In this document: positions 4,119-39,541 of the stretch, piece after piece
Layout: each line of letters starts with the position of its first letter
Numbering within the stretch: position 1 is the first letter of the stretch
DNA from: a virus
IMG/VR virus record: IMGVR_UViG_3300042922_001453
Location: 1-39,541 of that record
Reading direction: 5' to 3' (one strand)
Length of the DNA stretch: 39,541 bases
Position numbers and translations under genes: made by a program
Notes under the pieces: generated by a model
Databases searched by the model: none
The model's input: the letters and a program-made list of their open reading frames with translations, nothing else
What the model was told of the DNA's origin: nothing

Positions 4119-4391
4119 ATGTCAGGTCTAGAAAAAATATTAGAAGCTGGTAACCTCAGCTCTGTTGCAATAATCACCGAAAGTGAGGTTAATGCAAGAA
4201 TAAACAAGATAGTAAATTTGTTCAGTCCGATTAAAAATGAAGATTTGCCATTTATAATTATGGCGCTTGATAAGTTTCTAGAGGCTGTTAAGGCCGCACA
4301 CCCTCAAGAGGCCAATATTGCTAAAATGCTGGCAGAAGCTTTAAATTTTGAAACGGTTTATATAGAAAGGAGAAATAAAGACAATGAGTAA
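4119..4391 (+). CDS. Hypothetical early protein (90 aa)
   Basis: ATG 4119 follows GGGAGG. The product is mostly helical (INKIVNLFSPIKNED, FIIMALDKFLEAVKAAHPQ). Its end overlaps the following gene by eight bases, so it is probably co-translated with the candidate recombination protein downstream. The family is not recognised. Confidence 0.55.
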   Translation: MSGLEKILEAGNLSSVAIITESEVNARINKIVNLFSPIKNEDLPFIIMALDKFLEAVKAAHPQEANIAKMLAEALNFETVYIERRNKDNE

Positions 4392-5469
4392 TGCATTACA
4401 AATTCTAAATAATTATGATGAAAAAAAATACAATGTTTTGGTGCCAGTGCAGACCATGCAGGATTTCCCGGACATATACAAGATGGCTATTAATACAGTA
4501 AAGATAGATATTGCAGAAGATACCTTCCCCATGGACAATGAGAAGGATTCAAGCGGGCAATGGGTACCTAAAAACTATGCCCTAAATAAGGTGGGCCTTG
4601 AAAAGCTCATGGCAGCGGCCAACATACAAGTCATAGAGAGTCGTCCTATTATACCAACAAGTGTGAGTTATGCAGCTGAAATGGCAAAGCAGTTGGGACA
4701 ACCTGTTAATTTTGATAAAAGAGACATAGCTTATCAGGTTACTATAACCGTACCTGACTTGACTGGAACGATACGTACTATTGTTGCCACAAAGGAAATG
4801 ATTGCTGATGAAATCTATCAAGAATGCCTAGACCAAGTTTCTACTAAAAAGAAGTGGGTTAATAAAAAACAAGTTGATTGCAGTCAGGAAGAGAAAGAAA
4901 CAGCTGCTAAGAAGTCATTTAACCAAATAATGAAGTTTAGAAACGCTCTCTGTGAGAGCAAAGCCCTCAATAGAGCAATCCGAAAAGCGCTGCAAATTAA
5001 GTCTAAATATACAGCTGAGGAATTAAGTAAGCCATTCGCAGTGCCGATTGTGGTCCCGAATACAGAAGATCCAGATATGAAAAGAGCAATGATTGATAGA
5101 TATAGAGTTGGAACCAGCGCCCTGTTTGGTATAGATTGGGGTTCAGGTCCTGATCAGACGGCACGCATCTCCGCTCCGCAACAATACAATGCCTTAGATG
5201 CTCCAGAAATTGAACCTGACACTGACTTAGAAGATATTGACTACGATGAAGCGCCGGAAGGGGATGAAGGAACTGAAGACGAAGACACTGATAATGAAGA
5301 AGATGGTCCCGTATATTGCGAAGACTGCGGTTGCGAAATAAAAGATTTCACTAACGCTCAAAAGCAAACCATGACCGTAGAGCAAATCGTAGAATATTCA
5401 AATACTCAATTTGGTACAGATTTATGTGCTAAATGTATTGCAAAAAGAGAGAAGGACAGGAGTAAATAG
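4384..5469 (+). CDS. Candidate single-strand annealing / ssDNA-binding recombination protein
   Basis: A 361-residue protein with three parts: a globular N-terminal region (1-250), an acidic linker (about 268-308), and a C-terminal zinc module (C312, C315, C317, C348, C351, with YSNTQFGTDLCAKC). The block around residues 190-225 (ALCESKALNRAIRKALQIK then YTAEELSKPF) loosely recalls the conserved helix of phage annealing proteins of the Rad52/Erf type. It lies just before an SSB-tipped small protein and the Mre11-Rad50 gene, where phages often keep an annealing protein. The assignment is inference; it could be another phage DNA-metabolism protein. Confidence 0.4.
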   Translation: MSNALQILNNYDEKKYNVLVPVQTMQDFPDIYKMAINTVKIDIAEDTFPMDNEKDSSGQWVPKNYALNKVGLEKLMAAANIQVIESRPIIPTSVSYAAEMAKQLGQPVNFDKRDIAYQVTITVPDLTGTIRTIVATKEMIADEIYQECLDQVSTKKKWVNKKQVDCSQEEKETAAKKSFNQIMKFRNALCESKALNRAIRKALQIKSKYTAEELSKPFAVPIVVPNTEDPDMKRAMIDRYRVGTSALFGIDWGSGPDQTARISAPQQYNALDAPEIEPDTDLEDIDYDEAPEGDEGTEDEDTDNEEDGPVYCEDCGCEIKDFTNAQKQTMTVEQIVEYSNTQFGTDLCAKCIAKREKDRSK

Positions 5470-5813: not shown

Positions 5814-5999
5814 ATGAATAAATTTGAAAGCTACAAAGAAAATGGACTTACTGAGGAAGCGGAGAAAAATTTCAATATTATAAGAGGAGTGATTTTAGGT
5901 GCTCTCCTTAAAAATGAGGAAAAGAAAAAACTTTGCGACTTTGTTAATGAGCTGGAAGAATACTTTAACGGTGATGTTGAGGAGGAAGATAAAAAATGA
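5814..5999 (+). CDS. Small acidic helical protein (61 aa)
   Basis: ATG 5814 follows GGGAGG. The product is a charged helix-rich peptide ending EEEDKK with no Cys and no known motif. It overlaps the Mre11-Rad50 start as ATGA (5996-5999), so it is probably coupled to it. A role as an accessory of that enzyme is possible but only by position. Confidence 0.5.
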   Translation: MNKFESYKENGLTEEAEKNFNIIRGVILGALLKNEEKKKLCDFVNELEEYFNGDVEEEDKK

Positions 6000-8900
6000 A
6001 AATATTTCATATAGCAGACATACACCTGGGAGACTTCCCGGGACCGACAATAAACGGCGAAAATGCAAGGCGTTTGATGATACAAAGAGCGCTGCATGAC
6101 ATTGCTGACAGAGCAGAGATTGAGGAACCAGACATTATTCTTATAGCCGGCGATTTGTTCCATAAATCTAAGATATGGGCCGATGCAATGCTGGTTCAGG
6201 TTAATATTATTAGAGAATGGCTCAAGAGATTAAGAACTGTAACACCGAACATAATTGTATTATTTGGTACTGGTAATCATGACAACATGAAAGCTTTTGA
6301 GCTCATGAAGGACTTAGATGTTTACATTGTCACTGAGCCTGAAAATGTAGCACTTGATATTAATTGTGAGAGTGTAATTGTGTCATGTGTGCCCAGCATT
6401 GATAAGAGAGTTTTTAGAAGCAAGATAACAGCAGCTGATACATCAGATGAAAATGTAATTATATCTGGAATGCTAGGCGATATTGTAAGAGGACTGGCAA
6501 TCGAAGCAGATGAAGCCAGAGCTGATTACAAAATTCTAATGGCTCATTACTCCGTCATCGGCGCCAGCATGGGGAATGGCCAGCACATATTCAACACATC
6601 GGACGTAACTCTAAATACTACAGCAATAGGTGAATCAGGCTTGGATCTGGCATGCTTGGGGCATATACATGGGCCACAGAAACTGACAAATATTAAAATA
6701 CCTACATATTACAGCGGCAGCATTCATCGTGTCAGCTTCACAGAAGAAGACCAAAGAAAGGGCTTTTATATTCACGACCTGCAGAGAGGCTCTGTTGAAA
6801 GTAAGTATGTGGATGTGCCGGCATACGGAATGCAGACAATAAGTCTTAACCAGGACGGCGTCTTGCAATTTATAAATACAGGTGACATTCCTATAGGAGT
6901 TGGTATATTCCCGATTGAAAATATGATAGTTAAAGTCCTCTATGAATGTGACAGTGAGCTTGATAAGAGATTCAACAAGAAATCACTAGAAGAGTATTTA
7001 TATTCTCAAGGTGCATTTTACGTTCAAGAGATCCGTCCAGAAAAAATAACTATGAAGGTTGTTGAAAAGACGTTGTCAGAGCAGGAGGGAGTTATAGAGA
7101 ATATAATCTCATACCTGAAAGAGCATACTCTTCCGGACAGCATAACCATTGAAAATATTATTGAGGTCGCAACGCCTTTAGTTCAAGAAGTAGAAGCTTC
7201 TTTAAACAAGAATAAGTCCAGGGGGCTGTTCGTGCCGCTGAGCCTAGAGGTTAATAACTACAGAAAATACAAGCATGAAGAATTTGACTTTACAAAGATA
7301 GACTTCGCCATGGTAACCGGACAGAACGGCGCCGGCAAGAGCAGCTTCTTCATGGACGCAGTTATAGATTGCCTGTTCGAAGAACCTAGGGAAGGCGACT
7401 TGACCGGCTGGATCAGCAGCGACATTGACGTCAGGTCCGGAAATATAAGGTTTAGATTTAAAATCGGTTCTAAGACGTATGAAGTAAACAGGAGTCGTAC
7501 AAAGAGCGGCAAGGCTGGACTGTCTATTTTGGAAATTGGAAAAGCTGCATCCGAAGATATTTCAGAACTTAAGAAAGAAGATACTCAAAAGAAGATAGTG
7601 GACATTCTTGGAATGGATAGCAGGATGTTCAAGGTCTGCGTAATGATTATGCAGGATAATTACGGACTCTTTCTCGAAGCTAGCAAAGATGAACGTATGA
7701 AAATACTGAGCAGGATCCTTGGCTTAGAGGTGTATGAAATCCTTGAAAAGAGATTCGATAATGAACGTCTTGAACACGGTCGCAAAGTTAAGTTACTCAT
7801 GGATCAGGTTGAAAAGATTGATAGTGAATTATTGGAAAGCGGCAATATTGAGAACGATATTGAAAATTCAAAGGTAAATATAGTTAACATTGAGAACGAT
7901 ATATTGAAATTCAAAGACGAAATAGCCATAACCGAAAGCGCCTGGAACAATCTGAAACTGCTCCGGGATATGAAGGATAAGGCTGAAATCCGACTGAAGG
8001 CTTACAATGATGAACGAATTAACCTGAAGAGAGCCGGCGATGATCACTATATGCATGTAGCAAGATGCCAGCAGGTTCTTGATAAAAAGGAATACTATGC
8101 TGAACGTGCTGCCGAGGCTGAACAAATTGCAGAGGAAACCAGGAAAAGAAGTGAGCTTGACCGCAGAAGAATAACGATTGAAGAAAATGTCAGAGTTTTG
8201 GATTCTAAGCTTGCCAGGCTGGAGAATGAGCTGGCTGGCAAGAATAACCGTATAACTGGCATAAAATTAGCATTGTCACGCAAATCTGAATTGATGTCCA
8301 AGAGTCAAGGCGTAGAGGAATTAATTATTAAAAAAGGCCAATGGAGTGAATTAAGTGAAAAACGATTAAGATTTAATAATGTTGTAACAAACATCAAAAA
8401 CACCTTAAATATCAGGAAAATTGAATTTGATAACACAAAACGCCGCCTAGAAACAGAAATTGCAATGCTTAATAACAAAGTCCTTATACTTGATAACAGT
8501 AACTGTATTGACGCCGCAAATGCCAAATGCAAGTTTCTTGAAGATGCTATTAAAGCAAAAGAATACCTTCCGACAGTAGATGAAAGTCTCAGGATTGCCA
8601 TAAATGAATACAATGCCAGCTTGGATAGTATTACAACTGAGCTGCAGGAAGCTGAGAAGAAGGTTGCTGATAATGAAGAACTTATGAAGGACTTGGACAT
8701 TGACCTTATAGAAAAAGAACTGAGAGAAAAGCAGGAGGCTTTTGACAAGCTGAAGTTGTTGGAAAAGGATGAGGAGTTGCTGAAAGTTGAAATGGAAGCG
8801 GCTGTCAGAATTGAAGTTGAAAAAACTGAAGTCCTGGATAATAAACAAATACTGTATGCCGAGCTGGGGCCGATAGTCCGGGAACTCAACAACATCAAAT

Positions 8901-9817
8901 TCTATGACTCGGCTTATCTTGACAATCTCAGGGACGATTGCAAGATTCATAAAAACATGGCAGTAATTGAAGAGCAGCTAAAGAATGCTGTTGCGAATAA
9001 GAACAATACGGACCTTCAGATTCAAGAGGTGGATAGGCATATTGAAGAGCAGGAAATGGAACTGAACGACTATAAGGATAAGTTATCAGAAACTGACTAC
9101 GTAGCATTAAAACTCAAAATAGAGGGATTTAATATTGAGCTTAGAAAACTTGAGAAGCAAAAGAATGATGAAAATATTAAGCTTGGCGCTCTGATGAAGG
9201 TAAAAGAAGACAAGAAGGCTTTAAGAGAGATGAGGACAAAGCTTAACGAGCAAATCACCGGCAGCAACAGGCTTAGGAATATATTTTCTATTCTCAAGAC
9301 AGCTGCGAGCATGGACGGCGTACCGTTTATGATTGTTAAATCAGTCCTGGATGTGTTGACAAGTATTGCAAATGACATCCTATCAGAGATGACTGCCGGA
9401 AAAATGAAGATTGAAATGCTTACGGAGAAAACCTTGAAATCCAACAAAGATAAGGAAATCAACGCTTTAGAAGTACTTATAAACAATCCATTTAATCCGG
9501 AGTTGGGAGCTATACCATACTTAAGCCGTTCCGGAGGCGAAAAAGTTAAAGCAGCTCTGGCCGTAGCATTCGCGCTGTCGGAACTTAATGCGAAACGCGC
9601 TGGCGTTCAGCTGGGAATGATGTTCGTTGATGAACCACCGTTCCTGGATGAAGATGGAGTACAAGCTTATACGGATGCATTAGAGGCACTTTCTAATAAA
9701 TTCACGGATATGTCAGTATTGGCCATAAGTCATGATCCGGCTATGCAAAGCAGATTCGCTCAGACGATTGAAGTAGTTAATACTTCAGAGGGTAGCAAAG
9801 TTATTTTTAATAATTAG
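5996..9817 (+). CDS. Single-chain Mre11-Rad50 (SbcD-SbcC fusion) DNA repair nuclease
   Basis: A 1273-residue protein. Residues 1-290 are a calcineurin-like nuclease of the SbcD/Mre11 type: D8-x-H10, GDLFH with D53, GNHD 93-96, H184, and GHIHG with H223 and H225. Residues about 410 to the end are an SbcC/Rad50 ABC ATPase: Walker A GQNGAGKSS 442-450, long coiled coil about 570-1120, signature SRSGGE 1177-1182, Walker B with D1212-E1213, and a downstream His in AISHDP. The coiled-coil apex has C837 and C845 (C-x7-C), not the usual CxxC zinc hook. Known relatives (SbcCD, T4 gp46/47, T5 D12/D13) are two separate proteins that process DNA ends, so one chain is unusual. No frameshift was found at the junction. 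Confidence 0.9.
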   Translation: MKIFHIADIHLGDFPGPTINGENARRLMIQRALHDIADRAEIEEPDIILIAGDLFHKSKIWADAMLVQVNIIREWLKRLRTVTPNIIVLFGTGNHDNMKAFELMKDLDVYIVTEPENVALDINCESVIVSCVPSIDKRVFRSKITAADTSDENVIISGMLGDIVRGLAIEADEARADYKILMAHYSVIGASMGNGQHIFNTSDVTLNTTAIGESGLDLACLGHIHGPQKLTNIKIPTYYSGSIHRVSFTEEDQRKGFYIHDLQRGSVESKYVDVPAYGMQTISLNQDGVLQFINTGDIPIGVGIFPIENMIVKVLYECDSELDKRFNKKSLEEYLYSQGAFYVQEIRPEKITMKVVEKTLSEQEGVIENIISYLKEHTLPDSITIENIIEVATPLVQEVEASLNKNKSRGLFVPLSLEVNNYRKYKHEEFDFTKIDFAMVTGQNGAGKSSFFMDAVIDCLFEEPREGDLTGWISSDIDVRSGNIRFRFKIGSKTYEVNRSRTKSGKAGLSILEIGKAASEDISELKKEDTQKKIVDILGMDSRMFKVCVMIMQDNYGLFLEASKDERMKILSRILGLEVYEILEKRFDNERLEHGRKVKLLMDQVEKIDSELLESGNIENDIENSKVNIVNIENDILKFKDEIAITESAWNNLKLLRDMKDKAEIRLKAYNDERINLKRAGDDHYMHVARCQQVLDKKEYYAERAAEAEQIAEETRKRSELDRRRITIEENVRVLDSKLARLENELAGKNNRITGIKLALSRKSELMSKSQGVEELIIKKGQWSELSEKRLRFNNVVTNIKNTLNIRKIEFDNTKRRLETEIAMLNNKVLILDNSNCIDAANAKCKFLEDAIKAKEYLPTVDESLRIAINEYNASLDSITTELQEAEKKVADNEELMKDLDIDLIEKELREKQEAFDKLKLLEKDEELLKVEMEAAVRIEVEKTEVLDNKQILYAELGPIVRELNNIKFYDSAYLDNLRDDCKIHKNMAVIEEQLKNAVANKNNTDLQIQEVDRHIEEQEMELNDYKDKLSETDYVALKLKIEGFNIELRKLEKQKNDENIKLGALMKVKEDKKALREMRTKLNEQITGSNRLRNIFSILKTAASMDGVPFMIVKSVLDVLTSIANDILSEMTAGKMKIEMLTEKTLKSNKDKEINALEVLINNPFNPELGAIPYLSRSGGEKVKAALAVAFALSELNAKRAGVQLGMMFVDEPPFLDEDGVQAYTDALEALSNKFTDMSVLAISHDPAMQSRFAQTIEVVNTSEGSKVIFNN

Positions 9818-10854: not shown

Positions 10855-11474
10855 TGAAACCGATACTTTTTAACACAGAAATGGTGCAGGCTATATTAGA
10901 AAATAGAAAAAGCGTAACGAGAAGAATAATAAAATTGCCAGAAGGCATGAACGGAAGACCTGTTGGAATAGAAGGCAATATCATAGACAACTCAATAGGC
11001 TTACTTTATCCTGGAGGAATAAAAAGGCCTCCTTACAAAGTTGGAGACATTCTATATGTTAGGGAAACATGGTTGAAGGCTGATGATGGAATTTACTATA
11101 AGGCAAGCATTAAAGTGCCTAGTGAAAGCGAAGATATACGGAAAGCATACGGCTATAAATGGAAGCCATCAATTCACATGCCGAAAAAGGCGGCAAGGAT
11201 ATTTCTAAAAGTAACAGCTATTAGGGTTGAGAGGTTGCAGGATATAACATCAGAGCAGGCTAAAAATGAAGGGGTTGATTTAACTTCCGGCACACCATTT
11301 CCTAAGACAACAGCAAGAGATTGCCATGGAGCTAAAAATGGATTATCTATGTATCAATCAAAATTTGTTATCTTATGGGATAGTACAATTAAGATACAAA
11401 ACATTGACAAATACGGATGGGAAGCGAATCCATGGGTGTGGGTGATTGAGTTTGAAAGGGTTGAAGCAAAATGA
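10854..11474 (+). CDS. ASCH-domain-like phage protein
   Basis: This 206-residue protein fits a common phage family related to the ASCH/PUA-like fold: KPILFNTEMVQAIL and RKSVTRRI at the N-terminus, PPYKVGDILYVRETW at about 60, PSIHMPKKAARIFLKVTAI at about 105, RVERLQDIT, and a C-terminal YGWEANPWVWVIEFE. ASCH domains are thought to bind RNA or modified bases. In phages the role is unknown. It overlaps the ERCC4 nuclease gene, so the two are co-expressed. Confidence 0.75.
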   Translation: MKPILFNTEMVQAILENRKSVTRRIIKLPEGMNGRPVGIEGNIIDNSIGLLYPGGIKRPPYKVGDILYVRETWLKADDGIYYKASIKVPSESEDIRKAYGYKWKPSIHMPKKAARIFLKVTAIRVERLQDITSEQAKNEGVDLTSGTPFPKTTARDCHGAKNGLSMYQSKFVILWDSTIKIQNIDKYGWEANPWVWVIEFERVEAK

Positions 11475-12025
11475 GATACCATTACACTGAAAAAGAGCAG
11501 AAAGAAATTCTAAATAACCTCACTATCCTGGTTGATACTAGGGAGAACGAAAACAAGCACATTATTGAGTTTTTTGAAAGAAAAAAGGTCAAATTCAAAG
11601 AGAAAAAGCTTGATTTTGGAGATTACTCGTTCATGCTACCGGCCATGCCAGAGCTCGGAATTATTAAGCCTCTTTTCTTTGATAACGAAATTGTGGTTGA
11701 AAGAAAAGGATCCTTGACGGAGCTGTCCGGAAACCTGACGAAGGACAGAGAGAGATTTGAGAAGGAGCTCATCAGGAAGCAGGATGCGAAGTTCCATCTG
11801 ATGATAGAGAATGGATCTTGGGAGATGATCCAGAGCGGCCGTTACGGGACCGAATACAAACCGGTGAGTTTCTTAGCAACACTTAATGCGTATATAGCAA
11901 GATACGGTATTAATATAAATTTTGTCACTAAAGAATATGCAGGAACATTTATTTTCGCATTATTTAATTACCATCTTAGAGAGGTAATATTGAACTACAA
12001 GGGAGACCTGGAAGAAGGTGAGTAA
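11471..12025 (+). CDS. ERCC4-type (XPF/Mus81-like) nuclease
   Basis: A 184-residue ERCC4 nuclease domain with no added helicase. VDTRE places D22 and E25, GDYS is at 50-53, and the hallmark ERK motif is at 77-79 (VVERKG), followed by GNLTKDRERFEKEL. XPF/Mus81/Hef-family enzymes cut branched DNA, which suits a recombination-dependent replication module. It overlaps the ASCH gene by four bases and is two bases from the primase-helicase gene. The tandem HhH motif of larger relatives is absent, so an oligomer or partner may provide DNA binding. Confidence 0.8.
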   Translation: MRYHYTEKEQKEILNNLTILVDTRENENKHIIEFFERKKVKFKEKKLDFGDYSFMLPAMPELGIIKPLFFDNEIVVERKGSLTELSGNLTKDRERFEKELIRKQDAKFHLMIENGSWEMIQSGRYGTEYKPVSFLATLNAYIARYGININFVTKEYAGTFIFALFNYHLREVILNYKGDLEEGE

Positions 12026-12027
12026 CT

Positions 12028-14667
12028 TTGTTTGACTATCAGAAAATGTGGGACGAGATACTTCCACGGCTGCAAGATAAAAAGAAAAATTTCAATTCAA
12101 AAGATAGAGAAAATTACAGCTTCAAGTGTACTCACCATGAGGACAAGACTGCATCCGCTTATATTGCATTAAAATCCGATGGTGGTATTGTAGCCGGATG
12201 CAGAACCTGCGGCAGCTCTTACGGTCTTAATACTCTTCTTTCAGATCTCGGCATTAATAAGATGGACTTTGTTGAAAAGAGCGAAACTTATTACAGTAAG
12301 GAAAATCTGATTAAGTACATAAAAGAGAATAATACTGGAAATGTCACAAAAGATGGTGATATTTGGGTTGTTGACAATGATTATAAATTTGACAATGCCT
12401 ACTTCTATTCTGATGAAAGAGGTACTCTTGTCAGCGTAAAGATCAAGTACAAGCTTGTGAATCCGGCTGCAGATAAAAGGTCAAAGAAATTTGTCCAGCG
12501 TGTTATTAGAGAAAATGAAATCATTGCAGCTTCTAAGGAGACAGTGGACCAGCTGCCAAAGCAATATATTTACAATGCACCTGCAGTGCAGCATGCCATC
12601 CGGGAAGGTTATTATATTTACCTGGTTGAAGGCGAAAAGGATGCCGAAACTCTAATCTGGAATGGCTTGATTGCAACATCATTTGCAACCGGCGCCGGAT
12701 CCATGTTTGACGACTATAAGTCACAGCTCCGGGGAGCGAAGCTTGTAATTTGCGGTGACTTTGACGAGCCAGGGCGCAAGCATGTTGAAAAGGTTAAAAA
12801 CTTCCTGTCTGACCAGGTTGAAAAAATGTACATCGTCGAGTATCTTCCAGAGTTGGGTAAGGTGCAAAACGATAAAGCAGATGTAACGGACTGGCTGAAT
12901 GCTGGCCATACGGTAAAAGAGTTTACGGACTATGTATTTGAAAACTGCCTGGATGTCCTGAGCGATTTTCAATTGCAAGAAAAAAAAGACGAGTTCAGCT
13001 ATGGAATTTGGAAGACTTCTTTTAGCAACAAAGAAGGCAAGGTAAGCAAGCAGATCTGCAACTTCACGATTGACGGTATTAACATCATCAACCGCGTTGA
13101 CACTGAGGAAGAGTACTTTGAAATGATTATCCGGACGAAAGGCAACCACATAATCAAAAGACGTGGCAGCATACTCGTGTTCAATGATGTGCGAAAATTT
13201 AGAGATTTCTTGAATTCCTCTGACCTCGTATTCAGGGGAACCATTGATATATTAATTGACCTGAAGGAATGGTGCTTCAGGTACAAGAAGAGAGAGACTA
13301 CAACGGCCTATGACATCGGAGGCATAAGGAAAATAAATAAAAAGTGGCTGTTCGTTACGAGTGAAGGAAGCTTTGACGGCAACTTCATATATGACAAGTC
13401 CAGGATCTTTTATGATGATGACAATTTTTCTGACTTTCAGTTCCTGGAGCTACCAATTCAAGAAGAGGTACAAAGCGTTTATGAGAGCCTTCTCAATTTT
13501 AATAGAAAAGAAATAACTTATACAGCTCTTGGCCATGTAGGAGCAATGCTGCTGAATGGTAAGTATAAGGAGCTGGACATTAAGCTTAATCATCTGGCCA
13601 TATTCGGTGAAGCCGGCGCCGGTAAATCGACGATCGTTGAAAAGGTCATAATGCCACTCACGAATTATGGAATTAAAAATAATGCCAGGGATGTGACGAA
13701 CTTCGGCTTTATTAAAGAGACTTCCAACAACACAACTATGCCTTTTTTCGTTGATGAATACAAGCCGTCAACTTTCATGTTGAAAAAGAACCAGGAACTG
13801 AGCAACCTTTTTAGAAACATTTATGACGGCAACAGCAGCGTCCGAGGAAACAAAGCTATGCAGACAACCAAGATCACTCCGGTAAGACCGCTTGTCATAG
13901 TTGGAGAGGAAGGCTTTTGGCAGGATGAAACTGCCCTGGTAGAGCGCTCTAATATTATATATGCTTCAAAGGCAACCAGGAGCGAGGAGAGCCTGGAACA
14001 CATCAATAATCTGATCAGAAATAAAGACGTTCTTAATAAGTTTGGAAAGCTGCTTGTTAAAATTGCACTGGATATAGATGAAAGTAAGTTCATGGACTTC
14101 CGAAAGAAATGCGAAAACCTGGTTAACTTCAAAGACAGAGTTTTGACGACATTTGTTAATACAGTTCAAGGCCTTAATATTTTTAGAGTGGCTTTCAAAT
14201 TTTACGGTATTGAGCTTGATTACAAAGAAGGCATTGAATACATTAGAAAAAACATATATGACAATGTCCTGCAAAATAACAATGAGGCCAAGACACAGTT
14301 AGAAAAAATCTTTGAGATCATTGATGAGATGATTTCAAACCATATAAGTGTGAAAGACGGTCTAAGGGTTGACAAGGAAAATAGTTCTGTTTACATGTAC
14401 ATTCCTGTCATTTACCCAACTATCAAGAAGTATGTCAAGGAATATAATCTTGATGAAAATGTGCTCGGCAAGAATGATTTTATCAAGCAGCTGAAAGGTA
14501 GCAAATATTTGATGGAAAAGACTGTAACAAATGTTCGAGTAAATGGAATTGTTAGAAAATGCTATACATTAGATTTGGACCTGCTTGATTCGCTGGGACT
14601 TGACAACATATGCACCTTCGTGCCGGTCAGCGAAGAGAAAGGCGAGCAGCAAGAGATACCTTTTTAG
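12028..14667 (+). CDS. Primase-helicase (CHC2 zinc, Toprim, AAA-type ATPase)
   Basis: Start TTG 12028, with AAGGTGAG upstream. The 879-residue protein has an N-terminal zinc site (C34-x2-H37, C58-x2-C61), a Toprim domain (VEGEKD at 200-205; CGDFDEPG at 242-249), and a C-terminal P-loop ATPase (GEAGAGKST at 527-535; PFFVDEY about 572). It should prime and unwind DNA at the phage origin. It ends EQQEIPF, similar to an SSB acidic tip. The ATPase resembles DUF927-type superfamily-3-like helicases more than DnaB. The candidate origin follows directly. Confidence 0.85.
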   Translation: MFDYQKMWDEILPRLQDKKKNFNSKDRENYSFKCTHHEDKTASAYIALKSDGGIVAGCRTCGSSYGLNTLLSDLGINKMDFVEKSETYYSKENLIKYIKENNTGNVTKDGDIWVVDNDYKFDNAYFYSDERGTLVSVKIKYKLVNPAADKRSKKFVQRVIRENEIIAASKETVDQLPKQYIYNAPAVQHAIREGYYIYLVEGEKDAETLIWNGLIATSFATGAGSMFDDYKSQLRGAKLVICGDFDEPGRKHVEKVKNFLSDQVEKMYIVEYLPELGKVQNDKADVTDWLNAGHTVKEFTDYVFENCLDVLSDFQLQEKKDEFSYGIWKTSFSNKEGKVSKQICNFTIDGINIINRVDTEEEYFEMIIRTKGNHIIKRRGSILVFNDVRKFRDFLNSSDLVFRGTIDILIDLKEWCFRYKKRETTTAYDIGGIRKINKKWLFVTSEGSFDGNFIYDKSRIFYDDDNFSDFQFLELPIQEEVQSVYESLLNFNRKEITYTALGHVGAMLLNGKYKELDIKLNHLAIFGEAGAGKSTIVEKVIMPLTNYGIKNNARDVTNFGFIKETSNNTTMPFFVDEYKPSTFMLKKNQELSNLFRNIYDGNSSVRGNKAMQTTKITPVRPLVIVGEEGFWQDETALVERSNIIYASKATRSEESLEHINNLIRNKDVLNKFGKLLVKIALDIDESKFMDFRKKCENLVNFKDRVLTTFVNTVQGLNIFRVAFKFYGIELDYKEGIEYIRKNIYDNVLQNNNEAKTQLEKIFEIIDEMISNHISVKDGLRVDKENSSVYMYIPVIYPTIKKYVKEYNLDENVLGKNDFIKQLKGSKYLMEKTVTNVRVNGIVRKCYTLDLDLLDSLGLDNICTFVPVSEEKGEQQEIPF

Positions 14668-36598: not shown

Positions 36599-37864
36599 AT
36601 GGATTTATATAAAAGTATGGAAAAAGACATATACAATTTCATCGGCAGCGTTGGACTGCTGATCAGTAATAGCATGTTTGATTTTATGCCAGGCGGATTT
36701 GTTTTACCTCTGCTGATTAGTGTTCTTTCTGGCGGAATGCTGCTCAGTGAATTTAAAGAAAGCAAGTGGGAAAAAATTTTTTCTAACTGCGGACTGAAGA
36801 ACAAAGACAATCAATATCCTATTTTGATAGAAGAGTCTAAGAACGACATAGGAGATAAATTTGTTTTCAAGCTGCCGCACGGATTATGCTATGAAGATTT
36901 CAAGAAGATGAAGTCAGAGCTTCAGACGTCCCTTGGCAAGAACTTGATTATAGAATGTGCAAATAATTTTAATGTCATAATGCAAATATTCAACGTCAAG
37001 TATAAAACGGTTTATAGGCCATTCTGGAGCCTCGGTGACGATAAAACCGGCATGTGCTTTCCTGTTGGCGTCGAATTGACTGCTGAAGGTGAGAGAATAG
37101 TGTACCTGGACTTAGAGAGCCAGGCTCACGTCCTCATCGGCGGCATTACCGGCAGCGGAAAGACCAGCTTTCTCAAATGCTTACTTACGGCCATGTGTCT
37201 CCGAGATGTTGAACTGAAAATCCTGGACATGAAGATGGGTGGAGACTATAACGTCTTTAAATATTATAAGTATTTGACAGCCTTTGTGAAGAACGTGGAA
37301 GCTGCTGAAGCTGAGATTGAGAACGTGAAGAAAATCATGTCCGACAGGTTTAGGGAGCTTGATAGGTGCAACTGCAAAGATTACCGGGACTACAATAAGA
37401 AGTATAATGATACAATGAAGCCGATTGTCATGCTGATAGAAGAGTATACGATGTTGAGCGACGACAAAGCATTCAATAAGGACTTGAACATCCTCCTGGC
37501 ACAGTCCAGGGCAGTAAACATTAAGATCATATTGAGCATCCAGAGGCCCTGTCACGAGAACCTTAACACAAAGCTGAAAGCCAACCTAAATCACACTGTT
37601 GCATTCATGGTCAAGAATACGTACAACTCAGAGATCCTTCTGGACAAAGGAGACTACAGAGCTGTGACCGAGCTTCATGGGAAAGGCGAGGCAATACTGT
37701 CAAACGAAAATACAGACGTGATGTTCAAAAGCTACTTCTTGGAAGACAAAGAGATTAAGAAACTGATTTCTAATAAAATGAACTACAACCGGGAGAGAAC
37801 TGCGGCTGTGCCGAAGCTTCAAGTAATCGTCAAAGATGCGAAGGTGGTGAGTCTCTGTGACTGA
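36599..37864 (+). CDS. FtsK/SpoIIIE-like DNA translocase (421 aa)
   Basis: The N-terminus has hydrophobic segments (MFDFMPGGFVLPLLISVLSG), so it is probably membrane-tethered. P-loop GGITGSGKTSF at about 180-190 and Walker B VMLIEEYTML at about 278-287 identify an FtsK-HerA ATPase, followed by a sensor segment (IKIILSIQRPCHENLNTKLK). Such proteins pump double-stranded DNA in plasmids and conjugative elements (TcpA-type) and are common in phage-plasmids. It overlaps the replication-relaxation gene, so both act together. The gamma domain for KOPS recognition is not seen. Confidence 0.85.
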   Translation: MDLYKSMEKDIYNFIGSVGLLISNSMFDFMPGGFVLPLLISVLSGGMLLSEFKESKWEKIFSNCGLKNKDNQYPILIEESKNDIGDKFVFKLPHGLCYEDFKKMKSELQTSLGKNLIIECANNFNVIMQIFNVKYKTVYRPFWSLGDDKTGMCFPVGVELTAEGERIVYLDLESQAHVLIGGITGSGKTSFLKCLLTAMCLRDVELKILDMKMGGDYNVFKYYKYLTAFVKNVEAAEAEIENVKKIMSDRFRELDRCNCKDYRDYNKKYNDTMKPIVMLIEEYTMLSDDKAFNKDLNILLAQSRAVNIKIILSIQRPCHENLNTKLKANLNHTVAFMVKNTYNSEILLDKGDYRAVTELHGKGEAILSNENTDVMFKSYFLEDKEIKKLISNKMNYNRERTAAVPKLQVIVKDAKVVSLCD

Positions 37865-38357
37865 TCGAGACGCAATGGTAGTAGAATTTGTAGAGAAGTG
37901 TCCTTGTTGCTCTGATACAATTCAAAAGCTGTTCTATCCTTCGCAGAGGGTAGCGAACCGGCGCCTTGCCTGGCTGCATGATCAGCTGTATTTGAGACGG
38001 ACCAGGGACACTGCAGCTGAAAGGTACTTCTATTTTACAAGAAACAGAAATAAGCAGCGAGAGCACTTTGACACTATCGCCAGAACGTACCTGTGGCTCA
38101 TGAGCAATGGGTACCGGATCCATGGGTTCGAAGTTCAGAAGCAGCACGGGAAGATTCGGCCGGATATGTTACTTGACTTAGAGAGGGAAAAGCGTATAAT
38201 ATTGCCTGTAGAGGTTGAGCTGAGCAACAATGACATTCAGACAAAAATTAAAAAATATGAGGAAAGCACATTCAAGAAAATGCTCCTGGTTAGCAGCGTA
38301 CCAAGAAACAGTAAAAGCGTTGATATTATAAACCTTAATGTAAAAGAGCTGCCTTAA
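37857..38357 (+). CDS. Replication-relaxation family protein
   Basis: GTG 37857 overlaps the FtsK-like stop. The 166-residue product has a winged-helix start (VVEFVEKCPCCSDTIQKLF; RVANRRLAWLHDQLYLRR) and a restriction-enzyme-like alpha/beta half (RPDMLLDLEREKRIILPVEV with E and D). This pattern fits Replic_Relax, whose members pair with FtsK-like genes on plasmids and integrative elements and are thought to relax or nick DNA for replication or transfer. Activity is inferred, not shown. Confidence 0.75.
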   Translation: MTDRDAMVVEFVEKCPCCSDTIQKLFYPSQRVANRRLAWLHDQLYLRRTRDTAAERYFYFTRNRNKQREHFDTIARTYLWLMSNGYRIHGFEVQKQHGKIRPDMLLDLEREKRIILPVEVELSNNDIQTKIKKYEESTFKKMLLVSSVPRNSKSVDIINLNVKELP

Positions 38358-38636: not shown

Positions 38637-38677
38637 AGTCTTGGTATTATGTATACATGAAAAGGAGGGAAACAACA

Positions 38678-39541
38678 ATGCTAAAAGAATTGAATCAGGT
38701 GATGGACTATATTGATGAGCATTTAACAGATGATATATCTCTTGAAATTATATCCGAATATGCTGGCGTTTCTGATTATCACTTTAGAAAGATATTTTTT
38801 TATCTTTCAGGTATGACGCTTAACGAATATATCAAAAACAGAAAATTGTCAGAATCAAATAAGGATTTATTAAAGGGAGAAAAGGTGACGGATGTTGCTT
38901 TTAAATATGGTTACCAGTCAATGGACGGTTTCACAAGAGCATTTAAAAAATGGAGTGGGTTTTTACCATCCGATGTAATAAAAACAGGCGTTAGTAAGTC
39001 ATTTCCCAAGCTTTCATTCATAATAACCGTTAAGGGAGGAATATCTATGGAATTTATAATTGAAGAAAAACCAGCATTTAATTTAGTTGGAGTAAGTAAG
39101 CGTGTACCCATGCAATTTGAAGGTGTCAACAATGAGATTATTAATCTTGCAATGAGCATAACAAAAGAACAAAAAGAAGAAATGCATTCTCTGCAAAATA
39201 TGGAGCCTCGTGAGATCGTCAATGCTTCTTATGATGCAGATGCTAACTTTTTAAAAGAAGAGGGAGACTTAACTCACTTGATAGGTGTTTTAACAACTGA
39301 AAACAAGGTAAGTGAACATTTAAATATAGTGAAAGTAGAAGCATGCACCTGGGCCATATTCCCAAATGAAGGACCGTTTCCTTCTACATTACAAGAAACA
39401 ATGGCAAAAGTATATTCTGAATGGCTTCCTTCTTCAGATTATGAAGTAATTAATGTACCAACTTTTTCATTTACTAAAATGGATAAGAATAAAAAAGACT
39501 TTGCTTACAGCGAAGTTTGGATTCCTGTGAAGAAGAAATAA
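38678..39541 (+). CDS. AraC-family regulator with GyrI-like effector domain
   Basis: ATG 38678 (MLKELNQVMDYIDEHL) follows AAAAGGAGGG; an ATG at 38657 overlaps that site. The 287-residue protein has two AraC HTHs (LEIISEYAGVSDYHFRKIFF; KVTDVAFKYGYQSMDGFTRA) and a C-terminal GyrI/SOUL-like effector-binding domain (MEFIIEEKPAFNLVGVSKRV; TWAIFPNEGPFPSTLQETMA; YSEVWIPVKK), complete at the window end. This Rob/BltR-like architecture is common on Firmicute chromosomes and rare in phages, so it is probably host DNA flanking the prophage. Confidence 0.85.
   Translation: MLKELNQVMDYIDEHLTDDISLEIISEYAGVSDYHFRKIFFYLSGMTLNEYIKNRKLSESNKDLLKGEKVTDVAFKYGYQSMDGFTRAFKKWSGFLPSDVIKTGVSKSFPKLSFIITVKGGISMEFIIEEKPAFNLVGVSKRVPMQFEGVNNEIINLAMSITKEQKEEMHSLQNMEPREIVNASYDADANFLKEEGDLTHLIGVLTTENKVSEHLNIVKVEACTWAIFPNEGPFPSTLQETMAKVYSEWLPSSDYEVINVPTFSFTKMDKNKKDFAYSEVWIPVKKK

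Follow-up and report, generated by a model that had tools for sequence, protein, structure and literature searches.

A widespread family of single-chain Mre11-Rad50 proteins in Clostridia phages, with a conserved upstream gene for a predicted annealase

Can a phage carry both halves of the Mre11-Rad50 enzyme in one polypeptide, and if so, what does it do with it? The question is raised by the window analysed here, a whole virus record of 39.5 kb (39,541 nucleotides) that includes terminase, portal, major head and tape measure genes. As a sequence-only reading had claimed, one uninterrupted frame on the + strand (5996-9817) encodes Mre11 followed by Rad50; it begins with ATG at 5996, comprises 1273 codons with no stop inside, and terminates at the stop codon at 9815-9817. 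A ribosome-binding-like GAGGAGG is located 5' of the ATG. The gene, its parts and the small ORF that precedes it are as follows.

5814..5999, + strand: 61-aa ORF whose stop overlaps the ATG of the fused gene (ATGA), from the sequence
5996..9817, + strand: single-chain Mre11-Rad50 (SbcD-SbcC) gene, 1273 aa, from the frame, Pfam/PHROG/NCBIfam matches and alignment
5996..6781, + strand: Mre11/SbcD nuclease core, residues 1-262, from Pfam Metallophos, invariant metal ligands, model and Foldseek
6782..7051, + strand: capping domain, about residues 263-352, from the secondary structure of the model and a Foldseek alignment that spans the capping domain of 3tho_B and of SbcD
7091..7201, + strand: helix-loop-helix, expected to grip the root of the Rad50 coil, residues 366-402, a putative assignment from model helices 366-376 and 385-402
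7202..7228, + strand: linker, residues 403-411, from the alignment of relatives
7229..7726, + strand: Rad50 N-lobe with Walker A (442-450) and Q-loop Q553, from NCBIfam, alignment and model
7727..8503, + strand: ascending coiled coil, about residues 578-836, helical in the model to 640 and predicted beyond that by Rad50 homology
8504..8530, + strand: extended hook C837-x7-C845 (canonical Rad50: CXXC), from the sequence and comparison of homologues
8531..9265, + strand: descending coiled coil, about residues 846-1090, predicted by Rad50 homology
9266..9814, + strand: Rad50 C-lobe with signature S1177-x-SGG, Walker B D1212-E1213, D-loop D1218 and H1246, from the alignment

Judged by sequence, an Mre11/SbcD nuclease occupies residues 1-400, and an SbcC/Rad50 ATPase occupies residues 412-1273. 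Pfam Metallophos matches residues 1-227 (E 1.8e-11), PHROG families match as SbcD-like over 1-407 (1.1e-19) and as SbcC-like over 255-1271 (1.4e-69), and NCBIfam places sbcd at 1-255 and sbcc from 413 onwards, the sbcd match (E 1.4e-20) scoring 74.1 bits against a cut-off of 77.65. All SbcD/Mre11 metal-ligand motifs (D-x-H, GD, GNHD-type, H, GHxH) are present, and D8, H10, D53, N94-H95-D96, H184 and G222-H223-I224-H225 are invariant when 21 fused homologues are aligned. The SbcC/Rad50 set is likewise complete (Walker A, Q-loop, signature, Walker B, D- and H-loops; two lobes with a coiled coil between them), and Walker A GxNGxGKSS at 442-450, Q553, SGG at 1179-1181, D1212-E1213, D1218 and H1246 do not vary in the same alignment. 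The earlier description of both halves as complete is thereby borne out: every motif that it named is invariant, several further ATPase motifs are as well, and the nuclease half also has a capping domain and the helices at 366-402.

An AlphaFold2 model of residues 1-640 (monomer, pLDDT 83) contains the nuclease core, the capping domain, helices 366-376 and 385-402, the short linker and the first Rad50 lobe. Among solved structures Foldseek ranks Mre11 from Mre11:Rad50 complexes and E. coli SbcD highest, with a top E of 2.7e-21; the capping-domain and helix-loop-helix (HLH) elements of the model lie at 256-352 and 366-402, with Foldseek matches to 3tho_B and 4lty. Helices 366-402, which we take to correspond to the HLH of T. 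maritima Mre11, would constitute the Rad50-binding HLH. The distance from the start of the second helix to the start of Rad50 is 28 residues in 38 of the 39 aligned relatives. Since the HLH is kept and is followed by a linker of about nine residues and near-constant length, the fusion looks like a covalent form of the existing Mre11-Rad50 contact. The proposal that fusion could alter how the nuclease is gated is weak for the same reasons, and the Mre11:Rad50 stoichiometry of the split enzyme is already 1:1.

How common is such a gene? Single-sequence locus searches found no relatives, and a DNA-level search in phages gave no match. Relatives were found by alignment-based searches: IMG/VR contigs yielded 32 more of the fused type, and bacterial genomes, for the most part those of Clostridia, yielded 78 loci. 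A complete single frame with all three profile segments is present in 96 of 117 loci, the window included; the incomplete loci are contig ends, apart from L086, L106 and L115, three draft loci in which the frame is broken. The 95 other complete homologues come from uncultivated viral contigs and Clostridia (pro)phage loci, are about 31-37% identical over their full length, and keep the catalytic motifs. Clustering of the 96 genes leaves 88, 54 and 14 clusters at 95%, 70% and 50% identity, respectively. When fused and split cases are counted among close relatives, as the sequence-only reading had proposed, all 96 complete genes are fused; split genes are found in four distant viral relatives and in cellular relatives. 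When a tree is built from the nuclease together with the two ATPase lobes, 24 representatives of the fused genes found here form one clade (UFBoot 97), with split phage, split cellular non-canonical and canonical SbcCD sequences outside it. As the fused genes form one clade, their sequences are most simply read as the outcome of a single fusion event in this family that was then kept. Within the same class (Clostridia) 3 of 391 sampled genomes contain the fused gene, and 8 of 10 host genomes examined have a separate SbcD- or SbcC-like match elsewhere; the phage copy is therefore not the housekeeping gene. Fused Mre11-Rad50 is thus a widespread family in Clostridia phages.

One feature sets these proteins apart from textbook Rad50. 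The two hook cysteines are invariant and lie 6-7 residues apart in all 96 fused proteins (C837-IDAANAK-C845 in the window), none of which has CXXC, a motif stated to be conserved in Rad50 across all life, from archaea to viruses (PMC5093744). CXXC is present, as CPVC, CPIC or CPTC, in each of the 12 split SbcC proteins of cellular origin that were examined. A CX7C hook is also found in two split phage SbcC proteins (L002, residue 366; L036, residue 403), which makes the long spacing a trait of some phage Rad50s and not of fusion. Because the catalytic features hold, we would class the fused protein as a Rad50 variant despite its hook, and the altered spacing offers a test of how strict the CXXC rule is.

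The stop of the 61-aa ORF overlaps the start codon of the fused gene, so translation of the two is probably coupled. A conserved internal start that would yield a separate Rad50 was considered and rejected. Of the 35 valines at codon 413, GTG encodes 10, which equals the 30% background, and Shine-Dalgarno matches occur sporadically. AGGGGG precedes GTG413 in the window, where an internal start keeps a small probability.

The surroundings of the fused gene bear on what its product may act with. Four features of the early region are relevant.

4384..5469, + strand: conserved upstream partner, 361 aa, phrog_13782 ("unknown function"), predicted annealase (SSAP), from linkage, model and Foldseek
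5299..5466, + strand: C-terminal zinc ribbon of the partner, common to ERF and Rad52-type annealases, from ribbon comparison
11471..12025, + strand: ERCC4-type nuclease
12028..14667, + strand: primase-helicase-like protein, phrog_26824, similar to DNA primase families

The neighbours of the relatives, as read from sequence, include repressor, integrase, replisome-organiser-like and DnaC-like genes, which are temperate-phage early modules. Near the start of the early region of the window lies a gene for a sigma-70-like protein (1625-2995; regions 2 and 4, extra HTH repeats, 456 aa). After the lysis region an FtsK/SpoIIIE-like ATPase (PF01580, 36599-37864) is followed by a phrog_9996 protein (37857-38357), a pair that a plain siphovirus would not usually have and that recalls the maintenance genes of plasmids or phage-plasmids. 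An AraC-type regulator with a GyrI-like domain (38657-39541) reaches the end of the record and may be host flank or a moron gene.

A profile search found a relative of the partner upstream and on the same strand in 91 of the 95 other fused loci, ending at most 600 bp from the fused gene in 83 of the 91, and this linkage holds across fused proteins that are just ~32% identical. Two of the four remaining loci start too near a contig end, and the other two (L096, L105) have upstream sequence yet lack the partner. The partner gene also occurs without the fused nuclease in apparent prophage remnants near guaA-type genes (L174 and L175, in G183 and G114).

What kind of protein is the partner? Against Pfam no family exceeded the cut-off and no SSAP family matched. 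Its AlphaFold2 model (pLDDT 84) has RAD52 as best PDB match in Foldseek, with probabilities of 0.80-0.90, E-values of about 0.01 (0.009-0.015) and low TM-scores of 0.15-0.35. The best viral match, in BFVD, is an ERF-superfamily protein (E 2.6e-5, again with low TM), and more ERF, SSAP, RecT and Rad52 entries are listed. A fold of the RAD52/ERF annealase type is suggested by this model, suggestive being the proper word. In hhalign comparisons with ERF and Rad52-like sets, which included a few wrong-strand ORFs, the N-terminal core scored no better than negative controls. The zinc ribbon was informative in another way. Across 382 Clostridia genomes it is found on eight other proteins that do not have the partner core. 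Of the six that were typed, one scores above the Pfam cut-off for ERF, another above that for Rad52_Rad22, and a third has a match to the PHROG Erf-like annealase family; the other three are of no named function. The ribbon pattern C-x2-C ... YS..FG..LC..CQ was seen on phage proteins of the ERF and Rad52 types and on unassigned ones of phrog_10048 (L137, L141, L142, L138, L140, L139). The ribbon may be a mobile tail module of annealases, and as such may flag new SSAP families. Taken together, fold similarity and zinc ribbon make an annealase the most likely identity of the partner.

On this evidence we favor, as the probable explanation, that a tailed phage makes a functional single-chain Mre11-Rad50, a nuclease that forms a Red-like recombination or repair module with the predicted annealase encoded upstream. 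Contacts between the Mre11 cores, between the ATP-bound Rad50 heads and at the hook would join two chains into a dimer with the M2R2 architecture of SbcCD, and ATP-driven opening and closing of the heads would let the nuclease nick and trim phage DNA ends, hairpins or blocked ends. The upstream neighbour, as an SSAP of Rad52/ERF fold, would anneal the exposed single strands, and the pair could then serve phage replication in the way of lambda Exo-Beta, as a module for recombination without RecA, for concatemer formation or for repair. The main effect of the fusion may be that both halves are co-synthesised and co-transferred. In its most specific form the proposal is that of a new Red-like system of Clostridia phages, with a CX6-7C-hook single-chain Mre11-Rad50 as exonuclease and phrog_13782 as a new Rad52-fold annealase family whose ribbon tail is interchangeable with that of ERF/Rad52-type annealases; we put the chances of this at about even.

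Other explanations have to be weighed against the favored one. The fused nuclease could be a stand-alone replication or repair factor, performing end resection and hairpin clearance in the manner of T4 gp46/47, with the upstream gene an ordinary early-operon neighbour such as a ssDNA-binding protein. Split phage SbcCD do work in T4 recombination-dependent replication (PMC3175470), and the annealase assignment combines a weak fold similarity with a small zinc ribbon. However, the linkage survives at just ~32% identity between fused proteins, the partner resembles annealases and not OB-fold SSBs, and in the Clostridia sample the partner ORFs that lack the fused gene (G114, G183) belong to apparent prophage remnants; we regard a stand-alone factor as rather unlikely. 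Even less probable, and in our opinion by a good deal, is a role in counter-defence or host take-over, by which the phage enzyme would destroy or compete at host DNA ends, or shield phage ends from host nucleases. Such a role would accord with the separate SbcCD-like genes of the hosts and with a weak similarity between the Rad50 part and LmuB, the SMC protein of Lamassu (3.3e-11), which any Rad50 would show, but the nuclease and ATPase sites are intact, the gene lies in the replication-recombination region and not among morons, and no defence-system match goes past generic SMC similarity. That the locus is itself a defence gene was rejected, as PADLOC yields generic SMC/ATPase matches only (LmuB, AbiLi).

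Finally, the single frame could be an artefact, a lost stop or frameshift that joins two adjacent genes. Indels do occur in assemblies of the fused gene, as the three draft loci with broken frames illustrate. This explanation is nevertheless refuted, and keeps a negligible probability, by 95 other complete, independent frames across the linker and by the near-constant linker length; a frameshift or stop near codons 400-415, which would have undone the original claim, is thereby excluded.

The novelty implied when a single-chain Mre11-Rad50 was first noticed in this phage did not survive a comparison with the literature. Yoshida, Claverie and Ogata reported in 2011 Mre11/Rad50 fusions in Mimivirus (R555), eukaryotes, Bacillus phage 0305phi8-36 and five bacteria, namely two C. 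kluyveri strains (on plasmids), Anaerostipes, Ruminococcus sp. 5_1_39BFAA and Deferribacter (on a megaplasmid), and made the case that fusions retain the HLH, that a linker of 9-12 residues is enough and that viruses are their main reservoir (PMC3175470). Since its HLH, linker (403-411) and 28-residue spacing fit these points, the present gene is a known kind of fusion. As in the earlier cases Mre11 precedes Rad50 in one frame (both halves being complete here), with the HLH kept and a short linker; the genes are on phages and plasmids and in gut Firmicutes, and the hosts retain a separate set. The Clostridium-Ruminococcus fusions of 2011 likely fall in the present clade. The present set differs in that its 96 complete genes make up one clade, ATPase and nuclease are both complete, a partner gene is linked to them and the hook is CX6-7C, and what we add to the 2011 work is this wholly fused clade, the C-x6-7-C hook and the conserved upstream gene.

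With E. coli SbcCD and archaeal Mre11-Rad50 the fused protein shares domain architecture and catalytic motifs, and its model matches 3tho, 7yzo and 4lty, whereas those enzymes consist of two chains and have a CXXC hook. Because one gene supplies both halves, a natural one-chain Mre11-Rad50 is convenient for structural and single-molecule study of how ATP gates the nuclease. T4 gp47/gp46 and the split phage SbcD/SbcC of Moorella phage MTATph1 (L002) and an IMG/VR contig (L036) are also phage-borne, and the L002 and L036 SbcC proteins share the CX7C hook; these are separate genes, however, that fall outside the fused clade, and the coils of L002 are shorter. If the neighbour is an annealase, the pair would be a two-gene recombineering candidate for anaerobic gut Firmicutes, where tools are scarce, and would show Mre11-Rad50 in the place of a phage exonuclease. 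Like lambda Red (Exo and Beta) and other exonuclease-SSAP pairs, it is a conserved pairing, located in the early region of temperate phages, of a nuclease that processes DNA ends and a predicted annealase; unlike them, its nuclease is Mre11-Rad50 and not of the lambda-Exo/YqaJ type, and its annealase would belong to a family unrecognised by Pfam and unnamed in PHROGs.
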